NCBI RefSeq assembly: GCF_012222305.1
Contig: NZ_CP035730.1
Span: forward strand, 1,178,001 to 1,242,000
From: Sulfolobus sp. S-194
GTDB taxonomy: Archaea > Thermoproteota > Thermoprotei_A > Sulfolobales > Sulfolobaceae
DNA length: 64,000 nt
Direction of reading: 5' to 3'
Shown: one piece after another, positions 3 to 63,687 of the stretch
Numbering within the stretch: the first letter of the stretch is position 1
Layout: every line of letters starts with the position of its first letter
Made by a program: the position numbers and the translations under genes
The notes under the pieces: generated by a model
Told to the model about the DNA's origin: nothing
Databases searched by the model: none
Seen by the model: the letters and a program-made list of their open reading frames with translations, nothing else

Positions 3-314
3 CTTGCGAATTCCCAAGAAGCAAGAAATGCAGTATTAGCGATTTTTGCACTAGTACTTTTAGCAATATATCCTATAGTACAGACGATGATAGCTGGAAT
101 AATTTTAGGTTCAATGATTTATATAGAGGGTGGGTCTGCAGCAGCAGGTATTGGGATCGCAACTATAACTAACACCGATAATATAGTCCAAGCAATTCTG
201 TGGCTTTTAAGCGCATTCGGTATGTCTATTAGCCTCGATACAATCGATTTGCTGTTCACTATTATTGCAGGGATAGGTTTGGGACTTTTTGTGGGAGGAA
301 TAGGCCTTTTATGA
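3..314 (+). CDS. Bacteriocin-like small hydrophobic protein, copy 1 (5' partial)
   Basis: The frame is open from base 3 to the TGA at 312-314, so the gene starts upstream of the window. The visible part is almost entirely hydrophobic and small-residue rich: a first segment (LAIFALVLLAIYP), then a Gly-rich turn, then an Ala/Ile/Gly-rich tail ending GGIGLL. It is homologous to the 109-aa protein at 35940-36269 on the minus strand: both have SQEARN or FQEARN, then LAIFALVLLAI and VQTMIA, with a more divergent tail. It is followed after 12 bases by the M48 peptidase and then the SpoIIM-like gene. Inference: a leader plus a hydrophobic mature peptide, as in circular bacteriocins such as AS-48 or circularin A, whose loci also carry a DUF95/SpoIIM gene. 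It could instead be a structural membrane subunit of the peptidase complex. No database match is claimed. Confidence 0.6.
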   Translation, partial: LANSQEARNAVLAIFALVLLAIYPIVQTMIAGIILGSMIYIEGGSAAAGIGIATITNTDNIVQAILWLLSAFGMSISLDTIDLLFTIIAGIGLGLFVGGIGLL

Positions 315-326
315 GGTATTACTGAG

Positions 327-1829
327 ATGGTAAACCCCGTAATAAGAGCTATTAGAAAGATGTTTTATTTTTTTATGTCCCTAATTCTTGCGGATATATT
401 ATTAGCTATAGTGACAGAAACAGCGGCTAAAGGAAACCCATATCTGTACCCCATTTTTACCAAAGTAACTTTAGCTCTATCAGAATTTCTTATAGGAGCA
501 ATAGTAGTTTCATTCGCTATTCTCTTTATTAAGTATCGTAAGATTATAGTACCTTCTGTGCGTGAGGTAGTTTACAATAAGCAAGAGGATATAATTTATC
601 AACCAGAATTAATATCATTGAAGACTCGCCTCATTACTATTTTCACTATTGCTTTATCAGCTTTCACAATGATATTACTAGGCCTAGCACCCTATACTCC
701 TAAGGGTTTCATTATCGATACTATTACCCCATTCATAATTTCAATCCTAATTAACGGACTCGTCTTCCCTAGAATTAAACCATTCAAATACATAAAACCA
801 GGAGAAATAAAAATAGTAACCATAAACACAAGAACGCCAGGAGCAACAGCAGAAGTACTAACACTCTCACACAACCCCTTCTCCAAAAGACTCATAATCA
901 TAAACAACACCCTACCCTCAAACATCATAAAAACCATAGAAGCACACGAAATAGAACACGCAAAAGAACATCACGCACTCATCAAATCCATCTTCAATAA
1001 CTTAAATTATTCCTTATTTTTTACAACAGTTGAACTAATTTCCATTTTTATCTTTGCGGAGGTTCATCCGCATCATGTTTCTTTTACTGTAAATGCTGGG
1101 TTTGTGGTTAAGGATTTGTTGTTTTTTGTGGGTTTGATATTTGTTTATTTGTTGTTTTTGAGGGTTGCTGAGTCTAGGGCTGATGCTGCGGCTTTTAGAG
1201 CCAGTGGTAGTGAGGCGTATAATCATATGATTACCTTGATTAGGATGTTTAGGGAGAATTCGAGGAGGGTTGATTTGAGGAGGGTTGAGGTTTTTCCTTT
1301 TTCGTTTAGGGTTAGTTCTTTTTTAGATAGGGTTGTGCATACGTCTTCTAGGGAGGCGTTGAGGACTGGTGATGCTTTGTCTTCTTTGGCTCAATGGGAG
1401 ATTCCAGCTGTTTTTGCGTTCTTTGGGTCTATAATAGAGGTTTTAAGGTTAAGTTCTGTGAATCTTGTTATTTTTGCTTTTCCATTATTTTTTGTTGGAA
1501 TGTTTGTTGTTATTGTTCTTGTTGGGTTGGTTTTTCTACCTTTGACGAGAAGTTATGGTGGGACGCAGAAGGGAAGGATGAACTTCTCTTTTCTTGTTTC
1601 TGGGTTGTACTTGATAACTGATGTTATTACGCTAACTGTAATTTATAACTTTTATCTTGCCTTACTAGTCCTAGTTTCGGGACTTGTCTTATCCTTCTTG
1701 ATTCAGAAATCTTTTCTTAGTGATATGAGGACTGCAGTAAAGACTTTTCTAATTACTTTCGCAGTCTATGAGACTATAAATGTTTCTCTTTTCCTTATCT
1801 TTTTAGGATCTCATCTCGGTGTTTTTTAA
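327..1829 (+). CDS. M48-family integral membrane zinc metallopeptidase, copy 1
   Basis: A 500-aa polytopic membrane protein. The zinc site is visible: HEIEH at residues 207-211, with a third ligand expected at E282 in ESRADAAAFRA, the usual M48 pattern (HExxH plus ExxxD). Membrane segments lie near residues 10-30, 50-68, 105-120 and 128-148, with more between 225 and 275 and from about 360 to the end. It sits between the small hydrophobic protein and the SpoIIM-like gene, overlapping the latter by one base, so the three probably form one transcript. Residues from about 332 to the end are identical to the copy at 34402-35928. Codon choice flips inside the gene, from A/C-ending (about 785-985) to G/T-ending (about 1050-1420). 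The likely job is processing of the upstream hydrophobic protein; this is inference from context. Confidence 0.8.
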   Translation: MVNPVIRAIRKMFYFFMSLILADILLAIVTETAAKGNPYLYPIFTKVTLALSEFLIGAIVVSFAILFIKYRKIIVPSVREVVYNKQEDIIYQPELISLKTRLITIFTIALSAFTMILLGLAPYTPKGFIIDTITPFIISILINGLVFPRIKPFKYIKPGEIKIVTINTRTPGATAEVLTLSHNPFSKRLIIINNTLPSNIIKTIEAHEIEHAKEHHALIKSIFNNLNYSLFFTTVELISIFIFAEVHPHHVSFTVNAGFVVKDLLFFVGLIFVYLLFLRVAESRADAAAFRASGSEAYNHMITLIRMFRENSRRVDLRRVEVFPFSFRVSSFLDRVVHTSSREALRTGDALSSLAQWEIPAVFAFFGSIIEVLRLSSVNLVIFAFPLFFVGMFVVIVLVGLVFLPLTRSYGGTQKGRMNFSFLVSGLYLITDVITLTVIYNFYLALLVLVSGLVLSFLIQKSFLSDMRTAVKTFLITFAVYETINVSLFLIFLGSHLGVF

Positions 1830-2021
1830 TGAATAAGGAAATACTTAAACTTTACTTGACTTTTTGGTCTGGCCTACTCTCTGGATGGGTAATTGATAAC
1901 TTTACAGGTTTTGATAAGCCAGAATTGATACATGAGCTTCCAATCCCCGATTACACTTTGCTAACTCACATCATCGAGGAAAACTTTATCTTTGCGCTAA
2001 TACTTTTCTTAATAGGTAATG
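1320..2021 (+). repeat. 702-bp inverted repeat, left arm
   Basis: Bases 1320-2021 appear identical to the reverse complement of 34210-34911: both ends align base for base, the lengths match exactly, and the encoded proteins are identical. The repeat covers the last third of the M48 peptidase gene and the first 64 codons of the SpoIIM-like gene. Flanking gene portions are homologous but clearly diverged, which points to gene conversion or a recent recombination rather than a simple recent duplication. Confidence 0.9.
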
Positions 2022-2287
2022 GGACTGCACAGAAAATAGTTGCGTTTGCTATATCTGAATTTTACGGCCAAATCGCATTTAAGTTTGGACTAATAGTTGG
2101 ATTAGTAGGTACAATACCTCATGGTTTAATAGAGCTTCTTGGTTTCAGCTTCATAGCCTATGCCGGGCAAAAATTCAAGGCTAAGACAAGCTTCTTTAGA
2201 CCATTATTGATAGGCTACGTAATGTTAACGATAGCTGCTCTCATAGAATCCACACTCTCTATTTATATTTTTCAACATGTAGTTTAA
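1829..2287 (+). CDS. SpoIIM/DUF95-like integral membrane protein, copy 1
   Basis: A 152-aa membrane protein whose ATG overlaps the stop of the M48 gene (TAATG), showing translational coupling. It has a segment FALILFLIGN and the SpoIIM/DUF95 signature GTIPHGLIELLG near residues 92-103, followed by FSFIAYAG; a last membrane helix precedes the C-terminus. DUF95 proteins are known in circular-bacteriocin loci (As-48C type), where they serve production or immunity, and in sporulation complexes in Firmicutes. Here the context of a hydrophobic small protein and membrane peptidase favours export, immunity or membrane-complex assembly. The copy at 34148-34402 is identical for 64 residues and then truncated, so this is the only complete one in the window. 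Confidence 0.75.
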   Translation: MNKEILKLYLTFWSGLLSGWVIDNFTGFDKPELIHELPIPDYTLLTHIIEENFIFALILFLIGNGTAQKIVAFAISEFYGQIAFKFGLIVGLVGTIPHGLIELLGFSFIAYAGQKFKAKTSFFRPLLIGYVMLTIAALIESTLSIYIFQHVV

Positions 2288-7424: not shown

Positions 7425-9161
7425 ATGAAACTAGGTTTTATCTCAAATCAAATAACCTCTGCAATTATACAAGGTACTTCAATTGTTTGGTTTCCAGTTC
7501 CTAAGTTTGATTCTCCTTCAATATTTACTAAATTACTAGATGAAGATGGAGGAGAATTCTCTATAGTAATAAAAAATGATTCGCAAATTAAGCAATATTA
7601 TGAGCATCCCTTAGTATTGACTACAGAAGTTCATACTGAAAAAGGAATGATTAAAATCAGGGATTTACTACCGTTGGGAGAGACCGTAATAATAAGAAAG
7701 GTTGAGAGTGATGTTCCTTTTTCGGTAATTTTTAAACCATTCTTTAAGTATGCACTTTACAGACCTATAATACTGAAGGAAAGGTTCATTAACTCTAGGG
7801 GTAGGGATTGCGTAGCCTTTCTCTATAAATGGGATGGAAATGTAAAAAGAGAAGGACCTTTTACATGGAAGTTTTCTGAAGGAAAGGGGTTTTTAGTAGC
7901 TAACTACTCTACGGATGTGGAACATGGAGCCTTAAGTGAAAGAGGGAAGAGTTTAAGACTAGATTTTGAAAAGCCTTTCGATAAAACTATAAAATATTGG
8001 GAAAGTTTTGAAGTTAAGTCAAACATATATGAAGATCTTTACAAGGCCTCAGTCTTTGTTCTTTTAGGTTCAATTTACTCTCCATCTGGAGCATCAATTG
8101 CAGCACCAACAACTTCTCTACCCGAGGTTGTTAGAGGTTCAAGAAATTGGGATTATCGATTTGCCTGGATTAGAGATTCGTCAATCACAGCTGAGGCATT
8201 AATTAATGCAGGGTTTATTGTAGAAGCTAGAAGGATAATTAATTTCCTTTTATCATTAATTAATTTCACATCAAAACCTTTCTATTATCCTTTATATACT
8301 ATAGAAGGTACTATTCCTCCACCAGAAGTTAAATTAATGTGGCTCTCTGGATATAAGAACTCAAAACCCGTTAGAATAGGCAATGCTGCATCAAAGCAAA
8401 TACAACTTGATGTAGAGGGATTCTTTTTGAACGCACTTTATAAATATTTTGAGAGGACTCAGGATACTGTATATATAAAGGAAGTCTTTGATAAAGTTGA
8501 ATATATTGCAGATTGGGTCGCTGAGAATTGGTTATTAAAAGATTCTGGAATATGGGAGGACAGAGGAGAACCTAAACATTATACTCACTCTAAGATAATG
8601 ATGTGGGTAGCCTTAGATAGGGCTGGAAAACTCGCAGAGCATATAAGCAGAGAAGATAAATGGAGAGAAAGCAGAGAATCTCTGAGAAAATGGATTTTAG
8701 AAAATTGTGTAACGAACGGTTATTTTGCAAGATTTGCTGGAAGTGAAGATGTTGACTCGGCAATACTTTCTGCACCTCTATACGGTTTTGTGAACGAAAG
8801 AGATATACTGTTCTTGAATACTTTGTCTAAGATAGAGAAGGAACTTAAGGTCGGTAACTTCGTTAAGAGATATAAGACTGACTTTATGGGAGAGGCTAAA
8901 CATCCGTTTCTTTTAACCACATTATGGTTAGCTAGAGTCTATGTAAGGCTGGGAAGAATTGAAGAGGCAAAAAATATAATCTCTAGTATAGAAGAGATAG
9001 CGGGAAACTTAAAGCTTATAGGAGAACACGTAGATGTTGAGAAGAAGGAATTTACAGGTAATTTCCCTCAAGTCTTTGTGCATGCCGAGATTATTAACCT
9101 AATTAAGGAGATTGAAGATAAAGATAGTAAAGGAATAACATATTATAAGTCCAAAGATTAA
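7425..9161 (+). CDS. Glycoside hydrolase family 15 glucoamylase-like enzyme
   Basis: A GH15 protein: an N-terminal beta-sandwich domain (to about residue 200), then the (alpha/alpha)6 barrel. Motifs: SRNWDYRFAWIRDSS (about 236-250), the general acid at about E378 in IWEDRGEPKHYTHSK, and the second-glutamate region GNFPQVFVHAEII near the C-terminus. GH15 enzymes remove glucose from starch, glycogen or dextrins; some archaeal members are trehalases, so the substrate is open. There is no signal peptide, so it is probably cytoplasmic and acts on glycogen. I start at the ATG 7425 (MKLGFISNQITS), the family N-terminus, not at the TTG 7371: the AT-rich stretch near 7395-7405 would be the TATA box of a leaderless transcript. 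The length from here is 578 aa. Confidence 0.88.
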   Translation: MKLGFISNQITSAIIQGTSIVWFPVPKFDSPSIFTKLLDEDGGEFSIVIKNDSQIKQYYEHPLVLTTEVHTEKGMIKIRDLLPLGETVIIRKVESDVPFSVIFKPFFKYALYRPIILKERFINSRGRDCVAFLYKWDGNVKREGPFTWKFSEGKGFLVANYSTDVEHGALSERGKSLRLDFEKPFDKTIKYWESFEVKSNIYEDLYKASVFVLLGSIYSPSGASIAAPTTSLPEVVRGSRNWDYRFAWIRDSSITAEALINAGFIVEARRIINFLLSLINFTSKPFYYPLYTIEGTIPPPEVKLMWLSGYKNSKPVRIGNAASKQIQLDVEGFFLNALYKYFERTQDTVYIKEVFDKVEYIADWVAENWLLKDSGIWEDRGEPKHYTHSKIMMWVALDRAGKLAEHISREDKWRESRESLRKWILENCVTNGYFARFAGSEDVDSAILSAPLYGFVNERDILFLNTLSKIEKELKVGNFVKRYKTDFMGEAKHPFLLTTLWLARVYVRLGRIEEAKNIISSIEEIAGNLKLIGEHVDVEKKEFTGNFPQVFVHAEIINLIKEIEDKDSKGITYYKSKD

Positions 9162-9198
9162 GAACAAACCGTCAAAAATTTCTTGGCTTCGCATTTGA

Positions 9199-9577
9199 TT
9201 ATGAAAGCATCAATAACCTGAAATTTTCATATTCTCCTTTTATTTTTAGAAAATTTGTGTCTTTAGTTACAAGGGTTAAATCTCTATTAATAGCTTGAGC
9301 TGCAATTAATATGTCAAAAGATCCGATTAGCATTCCTATATCTCTCAATTTTTATAAATCTTTGAGACTATCACAGAATCTTTTAGGGTAATGCTCAAAA
9401 TTTTAAATGCTGATAAGAAATCTAATATTTTATTTTCATCAACTTTACCTAATAATATTTCATATATACATAATGAGCTTACATAGAAATCTTCAGCATT
9501 ATCTAGAACCTTTTCACTTTTTTATTTCCCTTTAAATATTCAATGATTGCCAGGCTTTCTAGCAATATCCTCATCAG
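9199..9577 (-). pseudogene. vapC PIN-domain toxin pseudogene
   Basis: The minus strand reads LAIIEYLKGNKKVEKVLDNA (with a frame break near the Lys-Val), then EDFYVSSLCIYEILLGKVDE with the PIN middle glutamate, then GSFDILIAAQAINRDLTLVT followed by KDTNFLKIKG, the C-terminal acidic motifs. The N-terminal aspartate region is missing or scrambled and at least two frame breaks and a stop occur. It follows a decayed vapB, so this is the second dead vapBC module in the window. Confidence 0.7.
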
Positions 9578-9759
9578 TTTTCTTTCTTGGTTAATTCTTC
9601 TGCCTTTTCCTCATTAAGAATCCCAAAATATTTTTAATTTTTTCTTCCTCACGCTTAATCATTCTTCTATCAGTTCTTCAATTACTTCACTAAAGCTTCT
9701 ATTACCTTTAATTTCAAGCAATTTCTTGAAACATCATCCCTTATCATTATTGTTTTCAT
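9578..9759 (-). pseudogene. vapB antitoxin pseudogene
   Basis: Starts MKTIMIRDDV at 9759, followed after a frame break by LLEIKGNRSFSEVIEELIEE, the DUF217-type antitoxin N-terminus; stops and shifts follow. A nearly perfect palindrome upstream (about 9761-9780, TATAGTGTATATATACTATA) looks like its old operator and TATA box. Confidence 0.6.
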
Positions 9760-9871
9760 ATATAGTGTATATATACTATAGGTAATAAGCCTATCACGAA
9801 GTTGCTAAAAAGAGAAAAGTCTAATAACTACTTTTTGATAAAAACCAAGATTAAAGAGGTTTTGTTCTTTA

Positions 9872-10531
9872 TCATTTCCTAATATCTTGAGTACATTGGA
9901 GAACTTTTCTCCAGTCTTTTTCATATGCCTCTGATAGCTTTATGAAATTAGGGTCTTCCGTGACTTTCTTAATAGCATTTACGTTTACATTATCAATAAT
10001 ACCCTTCTCTTTAAGTTCGAGGATCAAATACACTACGTTAATTTTAATGTGTATATTTAATGGCTGTTCAAGTAACTCAGTAAGATAATCTTTATCTGGT
10101 TTTTTAATCAATCCTATCTCCAGGAAGTTGGGGAGTAAGCTCCATGCACTTATTCTAGTTAAGGGATCTGATCTTAAGGATTTCTCAAAATATCGTATGT
10201 TTGACTTAAGTAAATCTAAGGATATTATTCCCTCTTTCCATAAATCATACGCTATCCACCAAGCATTTATATCTCCTTCTCTTAATGCTCTTGCCAGATT
10301 TTTCTCGTCGTATTCATTTTTATCTATTATATTTAGCTTTATTAACTGAGGTAGCATTTGCCATGCATGTAAAGCCACGTCTATGTCTTCATCCTCTAAT
10401 AACTCTAGAAAGTATTTCTTAAATGATTTAAGATCTATAGATTTGTATAATAAGTCTGCTTTTCTCCATCCGTCTAGTCTATCATATTTGTTATTTGAAG
10501 TTAGTAATTGTTCGTAGAACTTTTTGTCCAT
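9872..10531 (-). CDS. HEAT-repeat-like alpha-helical protein, unknown
   Basis: About 219 aa from the ATG at 10531 (an in-frame ATG lies 15 bases upstream). It is built of repeated helix pairs with a recurring pattern: WRKADLLYKS, HAWQMLPQLIKLNIIDK, NAWWIAYDLWKEGIISLD, ISAWSLLPNFLEIGLIKK, NVVYLILELKEKGIID. These look like HEAT/armadillo-type repeats of about 40 residues, suggesting a protein-binding scaffold. There is no enzyme motif and no membrane segment. It stands alone between a dead vapBC pair and the SOR gene, transcribed away from SOR. No function is assigned. Confidence 0.65.
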   Translation of the reverse strand: MDKKFYEQLLTSNNKYDRLDGWRKADLLYKSIDLKSFKKYFLELLEDEDIDVALHAWQMLPQLIKLNIIDKNEYDEKNLARALREGDINAWWIAYDLWKEGIISLDLLKSNIRYFEKSLRSDPLTRISAWSLLPNFLEIGLIKKPDKDYLTELLEQPLNIHIKINVVYLILELKEKGIIDNVNVNAIKKVTEDPNFIKLSEAYEKDWRKVLQCTQDIRK

Positions 10532-10710
10532 AAATAATATGTGCAACTATGGGCTAATATGTTTATCTATTAAATTTGAAATAAACTAACTCAACAAAAA
10601 AATATATTTATAAAATTCTGTAGATGAGGAAAATACTTACTTTAACAGAGTTAAATGAAAAAGAATAACGCGTTTATTAACTTTCAATCAAAATAATGTA
10701 ATGACAAAAT

Positions 10711-11646
10711 ATGCCAAAACCATATGTAGCAATAAACATGGTAGAAGTAAGAAACGATCCTAAAACGTTAGAACTTTTCGGAAAAGTAGGACCAAAAGTA
10801 TGCATGGTCACGGCAAGACATCCAGGGTTTGTAGGATTTCAAAATCATGTACAAATAGGAGTAGTTCCTCTAGGGACTAGATGGGGAGGTGCTAAAATGG
10901 AAATGAGCCAAGAAATGCATAGTATGATGCTAATGCAATATACCTTTTGGAAGAACTGGAAAGATCATGAGGAAATGCATAAACAGAACTGGGCTAATCT
11001 ATTTAGATTATGCCTACAATGTGCAGACCAGATGATTTGGGGACCTTATGAGCCTCTATATGAAATAGTCTACGCTAATATGCCTCTTAATACTGAAATG
11101 ACTGATTTCACAGTTATGGTAGGTAAGAAGTTTGCCGCTGGAGAAGCAGTATCTATTCCTCCAATTTCTCAGCCTTACGGAAAGAGAGTTGTTGCCTTCG
11201 GAGAGCATATAGTCAAAGAAGGGCTTGAGAATCAGTTTGAGGAGTATGCTATAAAAACTCTTGAAGCGTTTAGATCAGCTCCAGGATTCCTAGGTGGTAT
11301 GATACTTAAAGAGATTGGAGTATCACCTTTAGGAAGTTTACAACTAAATGCAAAAGGATTTCACCAAATATTAGAAACAGCTAACGGAATGGATGTACCA
11401 GAACCAGTAACAATTTATGAAGCTCCAGAATTCAGAAATAGACCCCAGAGGTATATTGTCCATACAGAATGGAGCGATACTAATGCACTCATGTTCGGTC
11501 TTGGGAGAGTACTAATATACCCTGAGGTAAGACAAATTCACGATAAAGTATTAGACACAGTAGTATATGGGCCTTACATAAGAGTATTGAATCCAATGAT
11601 GGAAGGAACATATTGGAGAGAGTACTTGAATGAATACCATCTATAA
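10711..11646 (+). CDS. sor: Sulfur oxygenase reductase
   Basis: SOR carries out oxygen-dependent disproportionation of elemental sulfur to sulfite, thiosulfate and sulfide in the cytoplasm, as a large hollow 24-mer. All key residues are visible: the mononuclear iron ligands H86, H90 and E114, the essential (persulfide) cysteine C31 and the second pair C101 and C104 (RLCLQCADQ). The protein has 311 aa, the family length. The sequence matches my memory of the Sulfurisphaera tokodaii enzyme more closely than the Acidianus one. It is monocistronic: a TATA-like stretch (TTTATTAAC) about 35-40 bases before the ATG and T-rich DNA after the stop. It identifies the host as a sulfur-oxidising thermoacidophile. 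Confidence 0.97.
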
Positions 11647-20561: not shown

Positions 20562-20640
20562 TGTTTTTACGATATGTTGTCCAAGATACAAATAATTGAA
20601 TAAATTTATATTTGAGTATAAATATAATATTCATAAAAAC

Positions 20641-20767
20641 ATAGTGCCGCCATTGAGCCATTTATATTTCTATATTAAAATAAGACATACAAGAACTTTA
20701 TCTTAGTACTTACTCTTTCTGAAGATAAACCCTAATTAATAAATTTATATACTAGTGACTACACTAT
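20641..20767 (+). mobile_element. Family A MITE
   Basis: Runs from ATAGTGCCGCCATT to ACTACACTAT, with the conserved interior TTTATATTTCTATATT and ACTTTATCTTAGTA. Same orientation as 36347-36474 and 2339-2446. No coding capacity. Confidence 0.8.
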
Positions 20768-33981: not shown

Positions 33982-34150
33982 TAGCATTTTACGTAAAAAT
34001 CTTACGTTAAAATATTTTTTAAATAATCCGGTTTTATAGTATAAGTTTTTCGTCTACTACGATGAACTCTCTTTGCTAGAAAAAAAGTATAAATATCTAC
34101 ACTATCTTTTAAAATAAACATTAGCTGAGACGATTTTCCGATAAATACTA
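33982..34150 (+). mobile_element. Family B MITE abutting the truncated SpoIIM gene
   Basis: Starts TAGCATTTTACGTAAAAATC and ends GATTTTCCGATAAATACTA. Its right edge touches the stop codon of the truncated SpoIIM-like copy (34148), so the element may be linked to the loss of the gene's 3' half. Confidence 0.8.
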
Positions 34151-34402
34151 TTGTGATTTATATTCTTCTAGAAATTTAATAATATCAGTTAGATAGTATG
34201 TTTTCATGTCATTACCTATTAAGAAAAGTATTAGCGCAAAGATAAAGTTTTCCTCGATGATGTGAGTTAGCAAAGTGTAATCGGGGATTGGAAGCTCATG
34301 TATCAATTCTGGCTTATCAAAACCTGTAAAGTTATCAATTACCCATCCAGAGAGTAGGCCAGACCAAAAAGTCAAGTAAAGTTTAAGTATTTCCTTATTC
34401 AT
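34148..34402 (-). pseudogene. SpoIIM/DUF95-like protein, copy 2, truncated
   Basis: The first 64 residues are identical to the intact copy at 1829-2287 (to LFLIGN). The last 20 residues are unrelated (DMKTYYLTDIIKFLEEYKSQ), and the conserved IPHGLIE region is absent. The break lies exactly at the inner end of the 702-bp inverted repeat (34210). It is still an open frame of 84 aa, translationally coupled to the M48 gene by a one-base overlap, so a shortened two-helix protein may be made. Probably non-functional as a DUF95 protein. Confidence 0.75.
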
Positions 34403-34911
34403 TAAAAAACACCGAGATGAGATCCTAAAAAGATAAGGAAAAGAGAAACATTTATAGTCTCATAGACTGCGAAAGTAATTAGAAAAGTCTTTACTGCAGT
34501 CCTCATATCACTAAGAAAAGATTTCTGAATCAAGAAGGATAAGACAAGTCCCGAAACTAGGACTAGTAAGGCAAGATAAAAGTTATAAATTACAGTTAGC
34601 GTAATAACATCAGTTATCAAGTACAACCCAGAAACAAGAAAAGAGAAGTTCATCCTTCCCTTCTGCGTCCCACCATAACTTCTCGTCAAAGGTAGAAAAA
34701 CCAACCCAACAAGAACAATAACAACAAACATTCCAACAAAAAATAATGGAAAAGCAAAAATAACAAGATTCACAGAACTTAACCTTAAAACCTCTATTAT
34801 AGACCCAAAGAACGCAAAAACAGCTGGAATCTCCCATTGAGCCAAAGAAGACAAAGCATCACCAGTCCTCAACGCCTCCCTAGAAGACGTATGCACAACC
34901 CTATCTAAAAA
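34210..34911 (-). repeat. 702-bp inverted repeat, right arm
   Basis: Reverse complement of 1320-2021, with no difference found where checked. The two arms lie 32 kb apart in opposite orientation, so recombination between them would invert everything between. Confidence 0.9.
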
Positions 34912-35928
34912 GGACGAAATCATGTGTGAAAAGGGAAATATCTCAACGGGTTTAACATCTTTTTTTAGATCCTTAAACATTTTAGTCAAGGTAGCTACGT
35001 GATCATATGCGTCCTTACCAACAGCCCTAAAAGCTGCAGCATCAGCCCTAGACTCAGTAACCCTTAGTAATAATAAATAGATAAGAATTAAACTTATTAA
35101 GAGTAACCCATCTTTAGCCACAAATGCAGGATTTATAGTAAAGGAAAAATGATGCGGATATAACTCTACTAATAAATAGATAAGAGTTAATTCAATTGAC
35201 GTTATTATTAAGGACCAATTTAAATAATAGAAAATAGAACGTATAAGTATGTGATGTTCTCTAACATGCTCCATTTCATGAGCTTTTATAGTTTCCACGA
35301 TATTAGGGGGTAAAATACTACTTAAGATTACAAGTCTTTTAGAGAAAGAATTACGTGAAAACGTTAATACTTCAGATGCTACAGCTGGTGCGTTTGAGTA
35401 TATAGTTACTACTTTTATCTCTCCAGGTTTTATATCTCTAAACGGCTTAATCCTAGGAAACACAAGCCCATTAACTAGGATTGAAATTAGGAATGGAACA
35501 AGTGTATCAATAACAAATCCTGTAGGAGTATAAGGTGCAAGATAATGTATGTGGTATAATCCTAATTGTAACATCAAGAGAGTCGACAAAGGAATAACAA
35601 AAACAGTAGTAACACGGGTCTTTAGTGATATTGCTTCAGGTTGATAAATTATATCTTCTCGCTTACTATAAACTACTTCACGAATAGAAAATACAAAATT
35701 TTTACGATGCTTAATAAAGAAAAACATAAATGAGGCTATTGATACTACTATAAGAAATATTGACAGAGCTAAACCCAATTTAGTAAAAAGGGAGTACAGA
35801 TATGGATTTCCTTTAGCTAATGTCTGTCTCATTATAAGTAACAATATAGCTGAAGGAACTACTAATAGAATTAATAGTGTTAAAAAATAACTTATCTTTC
35901 TAGCGTCCCTCTTTATGGGATCACTCAT
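34402..35928 (-). CDS. M48-family integral membrane zinc metallopeptidase, copy 2
   Basis: 508 aa with the zinc motif HEMEH at residues 217-221 and a third ligand expected at E292 in ESRADAAAFRA. Overall plan as in copy 1: two N-terminal membrane helices, a cytosolic or loop segment with YSKREDIIYQPEAISL, two more helices, the catalytic domain, and further helices. The N-terminal two thirds differ clearly from copy 1, while the last third is identical because of the 702-bp repeat. It follows the small hydrophobic gene (ends at 35940) by 11 bases. Likely role: maturation of that small protein; the downstream SpoIIM gene is truncated here. Confidence 0.8.
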   Translation of the reverse strand: MSDPIKRDARKISYFLTLLILLVVPSAILLLIMRQTLAKGNPYLYSLFTKLGLALSIFLIVVSIASFMFFFIKHRKNFVFSIREVVYSKREDIIYQPEAISLKTRVTTVFVIPLSTLLMLQLGLYHIHYLAPYTPTGFVIDTLVPFLISILVNGLVFPRIKPFRDIKPGEIKVVTIYSNAPAVASEVLTFSRNSFSKRLVILSSILPPNIVETIKAHEMEHVREHHILIRSIFYYLNWSLIITSIELTLIYLLVELYPHHFSFTINPAFVAKDGLLLISLILIYLLLLRVTESRADAAAFRAVGKDAYDHVATLTKMFKDLKKDVKPVEIFPFSHMISSFLDRVVHTSSREALRTGDALSSLAQWEIPAVFAFFGSIIEVLRLSSVNLVIFAFPLFFVGMFVVIVLVGLVFLPLTRSYGGTQKGRMNFSFLVSGLYLITDVITLTVIYNFYLALLVLVSGLVLSFLIQKSFLSDMRTAVKTFLITFAVYETINVSLFLIFLGSHLGVF

Positions 35929-35939
35929 TGCATGTTACC

Positions 35940-36269
35940 TCAAGCGAGACCCAGTCCGCCTGCTACGGCTACTAAGCCTGCTAGTACAATAGCTGTTGCT
36001 ACAGTGCTAACACTAACAGTTATGCCAAGCCATGATAATAAAGTCACTACTGCACCTGCGATCGTACCAGAGTTGGCAATCAATCCGAATCCAATTCCAC
36101 TTATTACTCCTCCATCTGCTGCATATAGCATTGAGCCCATAAGTAGTGCAGCTATCATCGTCTGTACTGCAGGAAATATTGCTAAAAGTACTAGCGCAAA
36201 AATCGCTAATACTACGTTTCTTGCTTCTTGGAAATTCACAAGATCTATTTTAATCTTTTTGGCCTTCAA
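35940..36269 (-). CDS. Bacteriocin-like small hydrophobic protein, copy 2
   Basis: 109 aa. A short basic N-terminus (MKAKKIKIDL) is followed by a membrane segment (VVLAIFALVLLAIFPAV), a second segment with MGSMLYAADGG, and a very hydrophobic Gly/Ala/Val/Ile tail of about 58 residues ending AVAGGLGLA with almost no charge. Copy 1 (3-314) keeps the N-terminal segment but differs through the tail. Size, hydrophobicity, small-residue content and neighbours (membrane peptidase and DUF95 gene) match circular-bacteriocin precursors, in which a leader is removed and the ends of the mature peptide are joined. It is inference; a subunit of a membrane complex is the alternative. AT-rich DNA upstream (36285-36330) should hold the promoter. 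Confidence 0.6.
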   Translation of the reverse strand: MKAKKIKIDLVNFQEARNVVLAIFALVLLAIFPAVQTMIAALLMGSMLYAADGGVISGIGFGLIANSGTIAGAVVTLLSWLGITVSVSTVATAIVLAGLVAVAGGLGLA

Positions 36270-36346: not shown

Positions 36347-36474
36347 ATAGTGTCGTCATTAAGCTATTTATATTTCTATGTTAAGATAAAAAGTGTACAA
36401 TAACTTTATCTTAGCATCTTCTCTTCTAGAGATTAGCCTAAATTAATGAAATTATATACAAATGACGACACTAT
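36347..36474 (+). mobile_element. Family A MITE, complete
   Basis: Perfect 14-bp ends: ATAGTGTCGTCATT at 36347 and AATGACGACACTAT at 36461-36474; 128 bp in all. It abuts the end of the truncated ISH3-like transposase (36475), so it probably landed in, or replaced, that element's 3' end. Confidence 0.9.
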
Positions 36475-37350
36475 AGACATACTCAAATCAGGAAATAAAA
36501 GAATTAATAATAATCTAAACTCCTCTCTCCTAACCTTCTCCTTACCGTATACAAGAAGCCTAAACTTAACCTGCTCGTCCCTCCTATGCCTCTTACTATA
36601 TGTAATCTCCGTCAAACCCCTTATACACCCTTACATCCCCAACTGGGACTGCTATCACATACTTAAACTGTGAAATGAAATTGAGCACATCAACAGTATA
36701 GAAACCAGCGTCAAGAGTTATCAACCTTATCTTGAATCCCATTGCCATTACTTGCTCCACAAGAACCTTCACTATCTCGTCCTTAGTCATACCGTTCACT
36801 TGCGGAATAAAGGCAAGTAAAAGTACTTTCCCCTTATACTTGGTTGTTGCGTAGTTCCACGAGTTTCCTTTTTCAGAGCTCCCTTTCACTGGTCTCCCGT
36901 ACCAGGTCTTGGTTGTCCAGTCTATTGAAATGTCTATTTACTCCCTTTAATAATTCTAGGGATATTTTCCTTTGCTCTTTCCAAGAGTTTTTTAATTACT
37001 TTCATCCTTTGTTTCTCTATGTAATTCCTCACGGTTTGTGAGGATAGGTCATATGCTCTGGACTTGCTCTCTACAGAATCGTTACACAAGCACGCGGAGA
37101 CAAGAGTTTTTGCCACTTCTTCTGCTTTTTTTCCTTAAAGTCTAGCATGGAAAGTAATATCCTATTTGTTATTGGTGAGGGATAACCGGTGTTACTATCT
37201 TTCTTCCTAACATGGTAATACACTGTTTCCCCTCACCTTAAACCTTTCTCCAATTTGTTGAACTCCTTATATTGTTATAAATCCTGTTTATTTTCTAAAA
37301 ATTAATATTACCTTATCGGAATTTTTTTGTAGAACAATTTTGGGTCTACC
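36475..37350 (-). pseudogene. ISH3-like insertion sequence, truncated, transposase decayed
   Basis: The outer end at 37350 carries the inverted repeat (minus strand GGTAGACCCAAAATTGTTCT), matching 44202. The minus strand encodes transposase pieces in different frames: AYDLSSQTVRNYIEKQRMKV, then GNSWNYATTKYKGKVLLLAF, then LITLDAGFYTVDVLNFISQF with the second DDE aspartate, and a C-terminal YGKEKVRREEFRLLLILLF. Stops and shifts break it, and the other end is missing at the MITE border. It is a different variant from the copy at 44202-45349. Confidence 0.75.
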
Positions 37351-47872: not shown

Positions 47873-49433
47873 ATTTATCTTCTGCTAGTAACTTCATGTA
47901 TGATATGACTTAAAAATGATAGTTTAAAATTTTTTAGTACATTAACGTATTTTCTTCTTTATCTTATAATTTTATTAATTAGAATATATTTTATAAAGTA
48001 GATACATAAAAATGAATTTTAATTTAAGAGATAAAGTAGTGAGGGTAACTAAAGAGCCTTAAGGTCTAGGTAAATTCTCTTTTGTAATAAAGGACTAATA
48101 TAATTCAGAGGCTATTAAAACGAGTAAAGTAAGGAAATTGACTGGATATTTTTTGTATGGCATTGATAAATGATTTTTCCATTACTGCTTTCTAAGAAAA
48201 AGAGTACAATATAATTCAGGTAATAAATGCGCGTTATCTAATAAAATCCGATAAAACCTTAAAAATGAGTAAAATATTATTATGTTACTTAATACTTAAT
48301 ATATTTTCTGAGATTTTAAAGTACAAGGTCTTCTCCTAACATTTGCAAGGTTTCTGTGTAATTTTAAGGATTGCTGTTTTCCTTTAAACTATAACTAGAT
48401 ATAATTTAAAAAACAGTTATATCTATAAAACCATGCAAAAAGTTACTTTGTATTAGGGAAAAACTTGACCTTTAAGGTATTAGGACGATAGACGATTATT
48501 TGGATTTTATAATTAATATCATTAATAATTAGATAAAAAATAAAAAGGAACTATTATAATTCGATATATATTTGATAATAAATTAATATTTATCATGATA
48601 TATCTAAACAGTTTGTGTTTAAATTACGTAATAATTCAATCTCTTTATAAAGATAAAAATTTAATTAGAAGTAGTAACCTTTAAATAACTATACAAAATT
48701 TCGTACTGATATTACATTTAATGCAAAATTTATTAAAAAATAAGTTAAGTATTAAATTAACCCATTATAACTTTAATAATCTATTCATAAAGGTATAGAG
48801 TGTATTAATAGTGTCGTCATTTGTATATAATTTCATTAATTGAGTTGATCTCTAGCGAGAGATAACGCTAAGATAAAGTTATTGTATACTTTATTTTAAC
48901 ATAGAAATATAAATAGCTTAATGACGACACTATCAGTGTGGACTACAATTTCATTTATTTGAAATTTATTCAAAATTACCTTAAATTATTCTTCCTTTGA
49001 GCACTTTTATTATACAATAAAAGTTCAGATAGGATTAAAATCATAATAACCTTAAATTATCTACAAACAGAACTAATCATGAACTGAAACTAAATTTATA
49101 CCTTATATAATTTATACTAAATCAACAAAATTGTAACCCACACCTGAAGATTTGATGATAAAATACTATATTTGTTTTGTTTTATAAGATAAAATACTAA
49201 TCTAAGAGCTAATAAAACCTCTGTGAGAATATATTTGATTATTTTTGATTATTAAAAAAGTATCAATTCTCATGTCTCATTAAGCCATAAATTATATTAA
49301 GTAGTTGTCTATATAAAGTATAGGCATACAATATGAGTTTTCATAATGTCATGCGAAATAAAACAAAAAATTTATGGTTATGTGAAATCTCCATATTCAA
49401 TCTCGATTTCATACATATAAATAAATATTCTTT
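47873..49433. other. Long non-coding region (1.56 kb)
   Basis: Very AT-rich. The only clear element is the family A MITE at 48808-48933. Around 48012-48170 a decayed frame begins NFNLRDKVVRVTKEP, which faintly resembles the start of an SDR, then stops. Otherwise I see nothing. Confidence 0.5.
48808..48933 (-). mobile_element. Family A MITE, complete
   Basis: Ends ATAGTGTCGTCATT and AATGACGACACTAT are perfect inverted repeats; 126 bp. The interior, AAGATAAAGTTATTGTATAC, is shared by all copies. Reverse orientation relative to 36347-36474. No coding capacity. Confidence 0.9.
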
Positions 49434-56917: not shown

Positions 56918-57045
56918 ATAGTATGTCGTCATTTGTATATAAATTCAATAACTAAACTGATCTCTAGTGCGAGAAGAAACTAAGATAAAGTTATTGTACG
57001 CCTTGTTTAAATATAGAAATTTAAGTAGCACAATAACAACACTAT
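56918..57045 (-). mobile_element. Family A MITE
   Basis: Ends ATAGTATGTCGTCATT and AATAACAACACTAT; interior AAGATAAAGTTATTGTACGC. Slightly diverged from the perfect copies. It directly abuts the left end of the IS110-like element. Confidence 0.8.
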
Positions 57046-63560: not shown

Positions 63561-63687
63561 ATAATGTCCTCATTTGTATATAATTTCATTAATTGAGGCT
63601 GATCTCTATGTAGAGAAGATACTAAGATAAAGTTATTGTATACCCTATTTTAATATAGAAATATAAATAGCATATTGAAGACACTAT
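63561..63687 (-). mobile_element. Family A MITE
   Basis: Ends ATAATGTCCTCATT and ATTGAAGACACTAT; interior AAGATAAAGTTATTGTATAC. Same orientation as 48808-48933. It lies downstream of the ARA-box-like site. Confidence 0.85.

Follow-up and report, generated by a model that had tools for sequence, protein, structure and literature searches.

The window (the whole 64-kb stretch of Sulfolobus DNA that was analysed) contains two copies of an operon in which genes for a small protein, an M48 peptidase, and a SpoIIM/DUF95 protein follow each other in this order. In copy 1, on the forward strand, the genes encode a class-1 small hydrophobic precursor-like protein (3..314), an M48-family membrane metallopeptidase of 500 amino acid residues (327..1829), and a SpoIIM/DUF95 membrane protein of 152 residues (1829..2287). 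The 5′ end of the small gene is cut by the window edge. In the flanking genome, the gene starts with a TTG codon 25 nt upstream of the window and encodes 112 residues at full length (L003:5976-6314; L003 corresponds to genome positions 1172001-1182000), so that position 3, where the first-pass annotation had placed the start, is a mere window edge. The M48 gene starts 12 bases past the stop codon of the small gene, and its own stop codon overlaps the ATG of the SpoIIM gene (TAATG).

Copy 2 occupies positions 34148-36269 and is inverted relative to copy 1. It encodes a class-1 small hydrophobic precursor-like protein of 109 residues (35940..36269), an M48-family membrane metallopeptidase of 508 residues (34402..35928), and a SpoIIM/DUF95 protein truncated to 84 residues (34148..34402), all on the reverse strand. 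The three-gene operon, its second copy, and the truncation of the second DUF95 gene had been recognized in the first-pass annotation and were all found as described. Recurrence of the entire triad elsewhere, in other genomes, shows that the gene arrangement is more than a chance association. Transposase-like ORF fragments adjoin copy 2 (36433-37223, reverse strand).

The two copies share an inverted repeat of 738 nt with 98% overall identity, one arm of which covers the C-terminal part of the M48 gene and the N-terminal part of the SpoIIM gene in copy 1 (1284..2021, forward strand), the partner arm lying in copy 2 (34210..34947, reverse strand). Over positions ~1355-2015, identity to copy 2 is 100% and drops off abruptly at the edges; outside the identical tract, residues 1–320 of the two M48 proteins are 60% identical. 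The copy-2 SpoIIM gene breaks at the end of the identical tract, its related sequence stopping exactly at position 34210. This sequence pattern probably reflects recent gene conversion or recombination between the inverted copies. Since ~1355-2015 is identical to copy 2, the copies cannot be counted as separate evidence throughout, and copy 2 was rejected as independent support within the tract. The 64-kb region also contains many short repeats. A dispersed repeat family of ~90–110 nt, present in both orientations (2336-2442, 20639-20745, 36347-36453, 48846-48933, 56958-57045, and 63600-63687), is likely a miniature transposable element.

M48 and SpoIIM proteins and their distribution

The M48 proteins of copies 1 and 2 matched Pfam PF01435 with 23.1 and 22.6 bits, respectively, above the cut-off of 20.3. 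The copy-1 gene encodes the HExxH motif at positions 945-959 and the ExxxD motif at positions 1170-1184 (both on the forward strand), and the zinc-site residues H207, E208, H211, E282, and D286 were invariant among 12 M48 relatives, as was a C-terminal set including H338, R342, G348, D349, E358, and P360. These results confirm the earlier assignment of the protein to M48, and the invariance of both motifs among the relatives suggests that catalysis is required in these operons. Searches with the M48 protein against plasmid, phage, and viral-contig sets gave no match, and no match was confirmed in scans of named genomes.

The SpoIIM/DUF95 assignment was partly sustained. The copy-1 protein scored 20.6 bits, below the Pfam gathering score of 26.9, and was assigned by alignment with SpoIIM proteins of triad relatives that exceed the cut-off (57.9 and 36.6 bits, and 31 bits in G030). 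SpoIIM is frameshifted in L014 and L017, and it is broken in copy 2, in G027 (L014), and in G017. At these loci, the genes for the small protein and M48 remain open; SpoIIM may therefore be dispensable or supplied in trans. A DUF95 gene beside a hydrophobic precursor had been taken as the layout of circular bacteriocin loci. DUF95 does adjoin the small protein and M48 genes in all class-1 loci, but SpoIIM as such was found in 144 of 200 Thermoproteota genomes, so that DUF95 alone is weak evidence, weaker than had been assumed.

The triad was found in five of 31 same-family genomes, belonging to three of 11 genera. The class-1 small protein, the M48 protein, and the SpoIIM subfamily occurred in the same five genomes only, a strict co-occurrence that counts strong-score SpoIIM subfamily matches, weaker matches elsewhere being longer proteins of 335–347 residues. 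The order of the small protein, M48, and SpoIIM genes was constant in L012, L013, L014, L016, and L017. Decayed copies were found in G017 and G027, the latter carrying an additional broken triad (L015) and two operon remnants besides (L079 and L080). A search of the wider phylum with the M48 profile gave matches in 16 of 398 genomes, and two genomes of family f31 carried the full triad with unrelated small proteins (L040 and L046). L039 resembles a triad but has a sequence gap.

In genus g101, a lone M48 protein of the same subfamily was found in a different conserved setting (L044, L045, L047, L048, and L049), adjoining conserved genes that resemble those for TrkA-type and MscS-like proteins, and it possibly has a different, housekeeping role. 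Another lone M48 relative (L042:4165-5601) lies downstream of a MacB-like permease gene, with neither SpoIIM nor a small hydrophobic gene.

Small proteins and related operon classes

The small proteins consist of ~103–113 residues and share a pattern of a conserved N-terminal segment, a fast-changing middle, and a conserved C-terminus. Between the two copies of the window genome (G000), identity is 85% over the first 40 residues and 38% over the remainder. The small protein had been described as charge-free. This was incorrect for copy 1, which has four acidic and no basic residues after residue 35; copy 2 has one acidic and no basic residue in this region. The putative class-1 cores have GRAVY values of 1.3–1.6 and net charges of -1 to -5. 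Structure prediction gave an all-helical model of low confidence (mean pLDDT 52.5, pTM 0.29), too poor for a fold search or for judging whether the core forms a compact saposin-like bundle.

In a syntenic ortholog pair (G029/G030), dN/dS was 2.35, 0.57, and 0.12 for the small-protein core, M48, and SpoIIM, respectively, the value of 2.35 coming from a single close pair in which synonymous changes are few (small-protein core dS only 0.03). Replacement versus silent counts in this pair differed between the small protein and SpoIIM (P=3.6e-4), and the comparison of the small protein with M48 was not significant (P=0.31). Ten of the 16 replacements in the small protein fall in residues 58–74. Sequence comparison thus revealed the conserved leader followed by a diversified core that characterizes leader-guided precursors. 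This supports the view that the small proteins behave like precursors, as expected of secreted conflict peptides.

No circular-bacteriocin family in Pfam and NCBIfam was matched by any of the class-1, class-2, and class-3 small proteins scanned, and no similarity of the small proteins to any known toxin family was found. PADLOC gave no match, and the matches in PHROGs were all weak and concerned families of unknown function. A pilin-like origin, raised by a weak PilA2 match (E=0.17), was rejected: the small protein has no pilin signal motif, and its C-terminus is hydrophobic.

Directly upstream of the window (L003 and L081), two other classes of operon follow the same logic. Class-2 small proteins are encoded at L003:5073-5474 (reverse strand), L003:2028-2333 (forward strand), and L078:6858-7181 (reverse strand), and two more were found in G029 (L012), one of them with a premature stop codon. 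Two class-2 genes beside the window share 175 identical nucleotides, from -34 to +141 nt, and this identity ends abruptly at codon 47; beyond +141 nt, it drops to background, and the cores are 33% identical in protein sequence. In the class-2 pair of G029, near-identity likewise extends from -181 to about codon 46, where it breaks off. Within a genome, class-2 cores are 25–33% identical, and their C-terminus (DPxTxxVFLGLxxTA) is conserved. The class-2 partners are a membrane protein without HExxH (358–420 residues in the listed ORFs), a protein of 137–140 residues, and a DUF1614-like protein.

The class-3 operon (L081:9081-10903, reverse strand) consists of a small protein gene (10547-10903) and genes for membrane proteins of 350 and 142 residues (9493-10557 and 9081-9509, respectively), with a DUF1614-like gene nearby in the opposite direction. 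The same layout with different cores was found in G029 (L082:8013-9696, reverse strand). The ~140-residue partner is common to classes 3 and 2 (40% identity, E=1e-19). Gene order and layout had raised the suspicion that the class-2 protein of 394 residues is an M48 homologue; this was unsupported by profile-profile comparison, and its structural model (pLDDT 43) was unusable. No homology to SpoIIM was detected for the class-2 protein of 139 residues. The class-2 partners thus lack detectable M48 homology, so that a peptidase may not be general across the classes. The DUF1614-like protein had a sub-threshold Pfam match (19.3 versus 23.9 bits), and its GGxxxxD pattern, considered as that of an aspartyl intramembrane protease, found no support in the PDB.

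Function of the operons and comparison with known systems

The operon is conserved, the catalytic residues of its peptidase are intact, its small proteins show a marked evolutionary contrast between leader and core, and its distribution is patchy, with decayed copies. With moderate confidence, we interpret these loci as accessory operons that produce hydrophobic peptides guided by a leader. The peptides are most likely toxins, either secreted or active on membranes, directed against related archaea. From these features, we infer that the small protein would be made as a precursor, in which the charged N-terminal segment and the first membrane helix (~residues 1–33 to 46) would serve as the constant recognition part. 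The membrane M48 peptidase would cleave this precursor, and SpoIIM/DUF95 would help in export, maturation, or self-protection. The remainder, about 55–87 residues that are mostly hydrophobic and carry hardly any basic charge, would be the active and rapidly diversifying part, which may be secreted to act on and kill competing archaea. New specificities could arise by point changes under diversifying selection and also by recombination in which promoter and leader are retained and the core is exchanged.

This reading as toxin precursors is supported by the identical leaders and unrelated cores of class 2, by the same layout in class 3, and by the GRAVY and charge of the class-1 cores, which are near those of the circular bacteriocins of group ii (about 1.0 for GRAVY and -2 to +2 for charge; PMC6131525). 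It is weakened by the absence in the triad of similarity to known toxins, of a dedicated transporter, and of a separate immunity gene. M48 genes have been reported near a few bacterial clusters for head-to-tail cyclised peptides (PMC8659200), and no enzyme is assigned to the steps that cleave the leader and close the ring in circular bacteriocins (PMC10028692, PMC8659200); in agreement with the former, M48 is a possible candidate leader peptidase here. The broader claim, that these loci represent the first archaeal family of leader-guided, possibly cyclised membrane-active peptides, with their own leader peptidase, specificities that diversify through recombination precisely where leader and core meet, and three parallel operon classes, appears doubtful at present.

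The first-pass annotation had proposed a circular-bacteriocin-like system. Four features are listed for circular bacteriocin clusters: in addition to the precursor and DUF95, these are an ABC transporter and a small cationic protein for immunity (PMC6131525). SpoIIM has been called class-defining (PMC13289728; PMC6131525). Only DUF95 among the four was clearly found here. Inspection of ORFs in L003, L012-L014, L016, L017, L040, and L046 revealed no conserved ABC transporter gene adjoining the triad, and inspection of the neighbourhoods revealed no fourth conserved small ORF for a cationic immunity protein, the triads consisting of three genes only. What stands of the proposal is an operon of a precursor-like small protein, an intact M48 gene, and SpoIIM; because the HMM search gave no family match and the ABC transporter and immunity genes were missing, its formal placement among the circular bacteriocins is unsupported. 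By analogy, the operon may still function in the manner of a circular bacteriocin or of another hydrophobic one. A true archaeal circular bacteriocin, in which the core is joined head to tail and SpoIIM contributes to ring closure or export, the role proposed in AS-48/circularin loci, is unlikely, even though SpoIIM is present, M48 genes lie near some bacterial clusters, core length and hydrophobicity are near those of group ii members, and the class-2 core is conserved at both ends and variable in the middle. Features are missing, as described above, and SpoIIM is common across the phylum where such loci are absent. Moreover, metallopeptidases form no acyl-enzyme, so that ligation would need another activity.

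The patchy, multi-copy, and decaying distribution and the protease adjoining a hydrophobic small protein would also suit a cell-intrinsic conflict module for abortive infection or addiction, in which M48 frees a membrane-damaging peptide upon infection or operon loss. However, neither a PADLOC match nor an association with plasmids or viruses was found, and a constant leader with a variable core is more typical of exported peptides, which makes such a module quite improbable. Leader, protease, and diversified core also constitute the logic of bacterial pheromone systems, and the leader/core contrast observed here could belong to a peptide that serves in signalling or kin recognition and not as a toxin; given hydrophobic cores of 55–87 residues, long for a signal, and operons without a sensor gene, we consider this very improbable. 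The membrane-stress alternative raised in the earlier annotation, which we take as a membrane quality-control complex where an HtpX-like M48 peptidase has the small protein as its adaptor or substrate, draws on the lone M48 proteins beside housekeeping-looking genes in g101. It fits poorly with a triad that is absent from 26 of 31 same-family genomes, has decayed copies, and changes fastest in the small-protein core, and it is the least probable of these alternatives.

Compared with known systems, the putative leader-guided toxins resemble the group ii circular bacteriocins gassericin A, acidocin B, and butyrivibriocin AR10 in their long precursor leader and in the low charge of their hydrophobic putative core, the bulk properties being near and the sequence not. 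Like circular bacteriocin clusters, the triads have SpoIIM/DUF95 alongside, but they are archaeal, lack sequence match, ABC transporter, and small cationic immunity protein, and have M48 as a fixed member of the operon, whereas it is rare in those clusters. The SpoIIM/DUF95 proteins of arCOG01996 in archaeal 'dark matter' islands likewise occur in variable membrane-protein clusters with a suggested role in defence; those islands have been described in Archaeoglobi, Pyrococci, and methanogens and contain other partners, M48 not being mentioned (PMC4158269). HtpX/Ste24-type M48 peptidases are also membrane metallopeptidases with HExxH and ExxxD, but the operon M48 proteins form a distinct subfamily with the invariant C-terminal set and an operon-linked precursor. 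A 2019 mBio survey of archaeal antimicrobial peptides (Makarova et al.) may already list these families. With only three genes and a metallopeptidase of its own, the archaeal operon would be a tractable system for studying leader cleavage by M48 and the role of DUF95. If our interpretation is correct, it adds a class of peptide weapons to Sulfolobales, where sulfolobicins are the described peptide toxins. The Sulfolobus sulfolobicins SulA/SulB share with the present peptides an archaeal origin within Sulfolobales and the expectation of membrane association and a narrow target range, and they are set apart by their described size, being proteins of 20–22 kDa (PMC5733018), whereas the small proteins here have little more than a hundred residues and are accompanied by M48 and SpoIIM.
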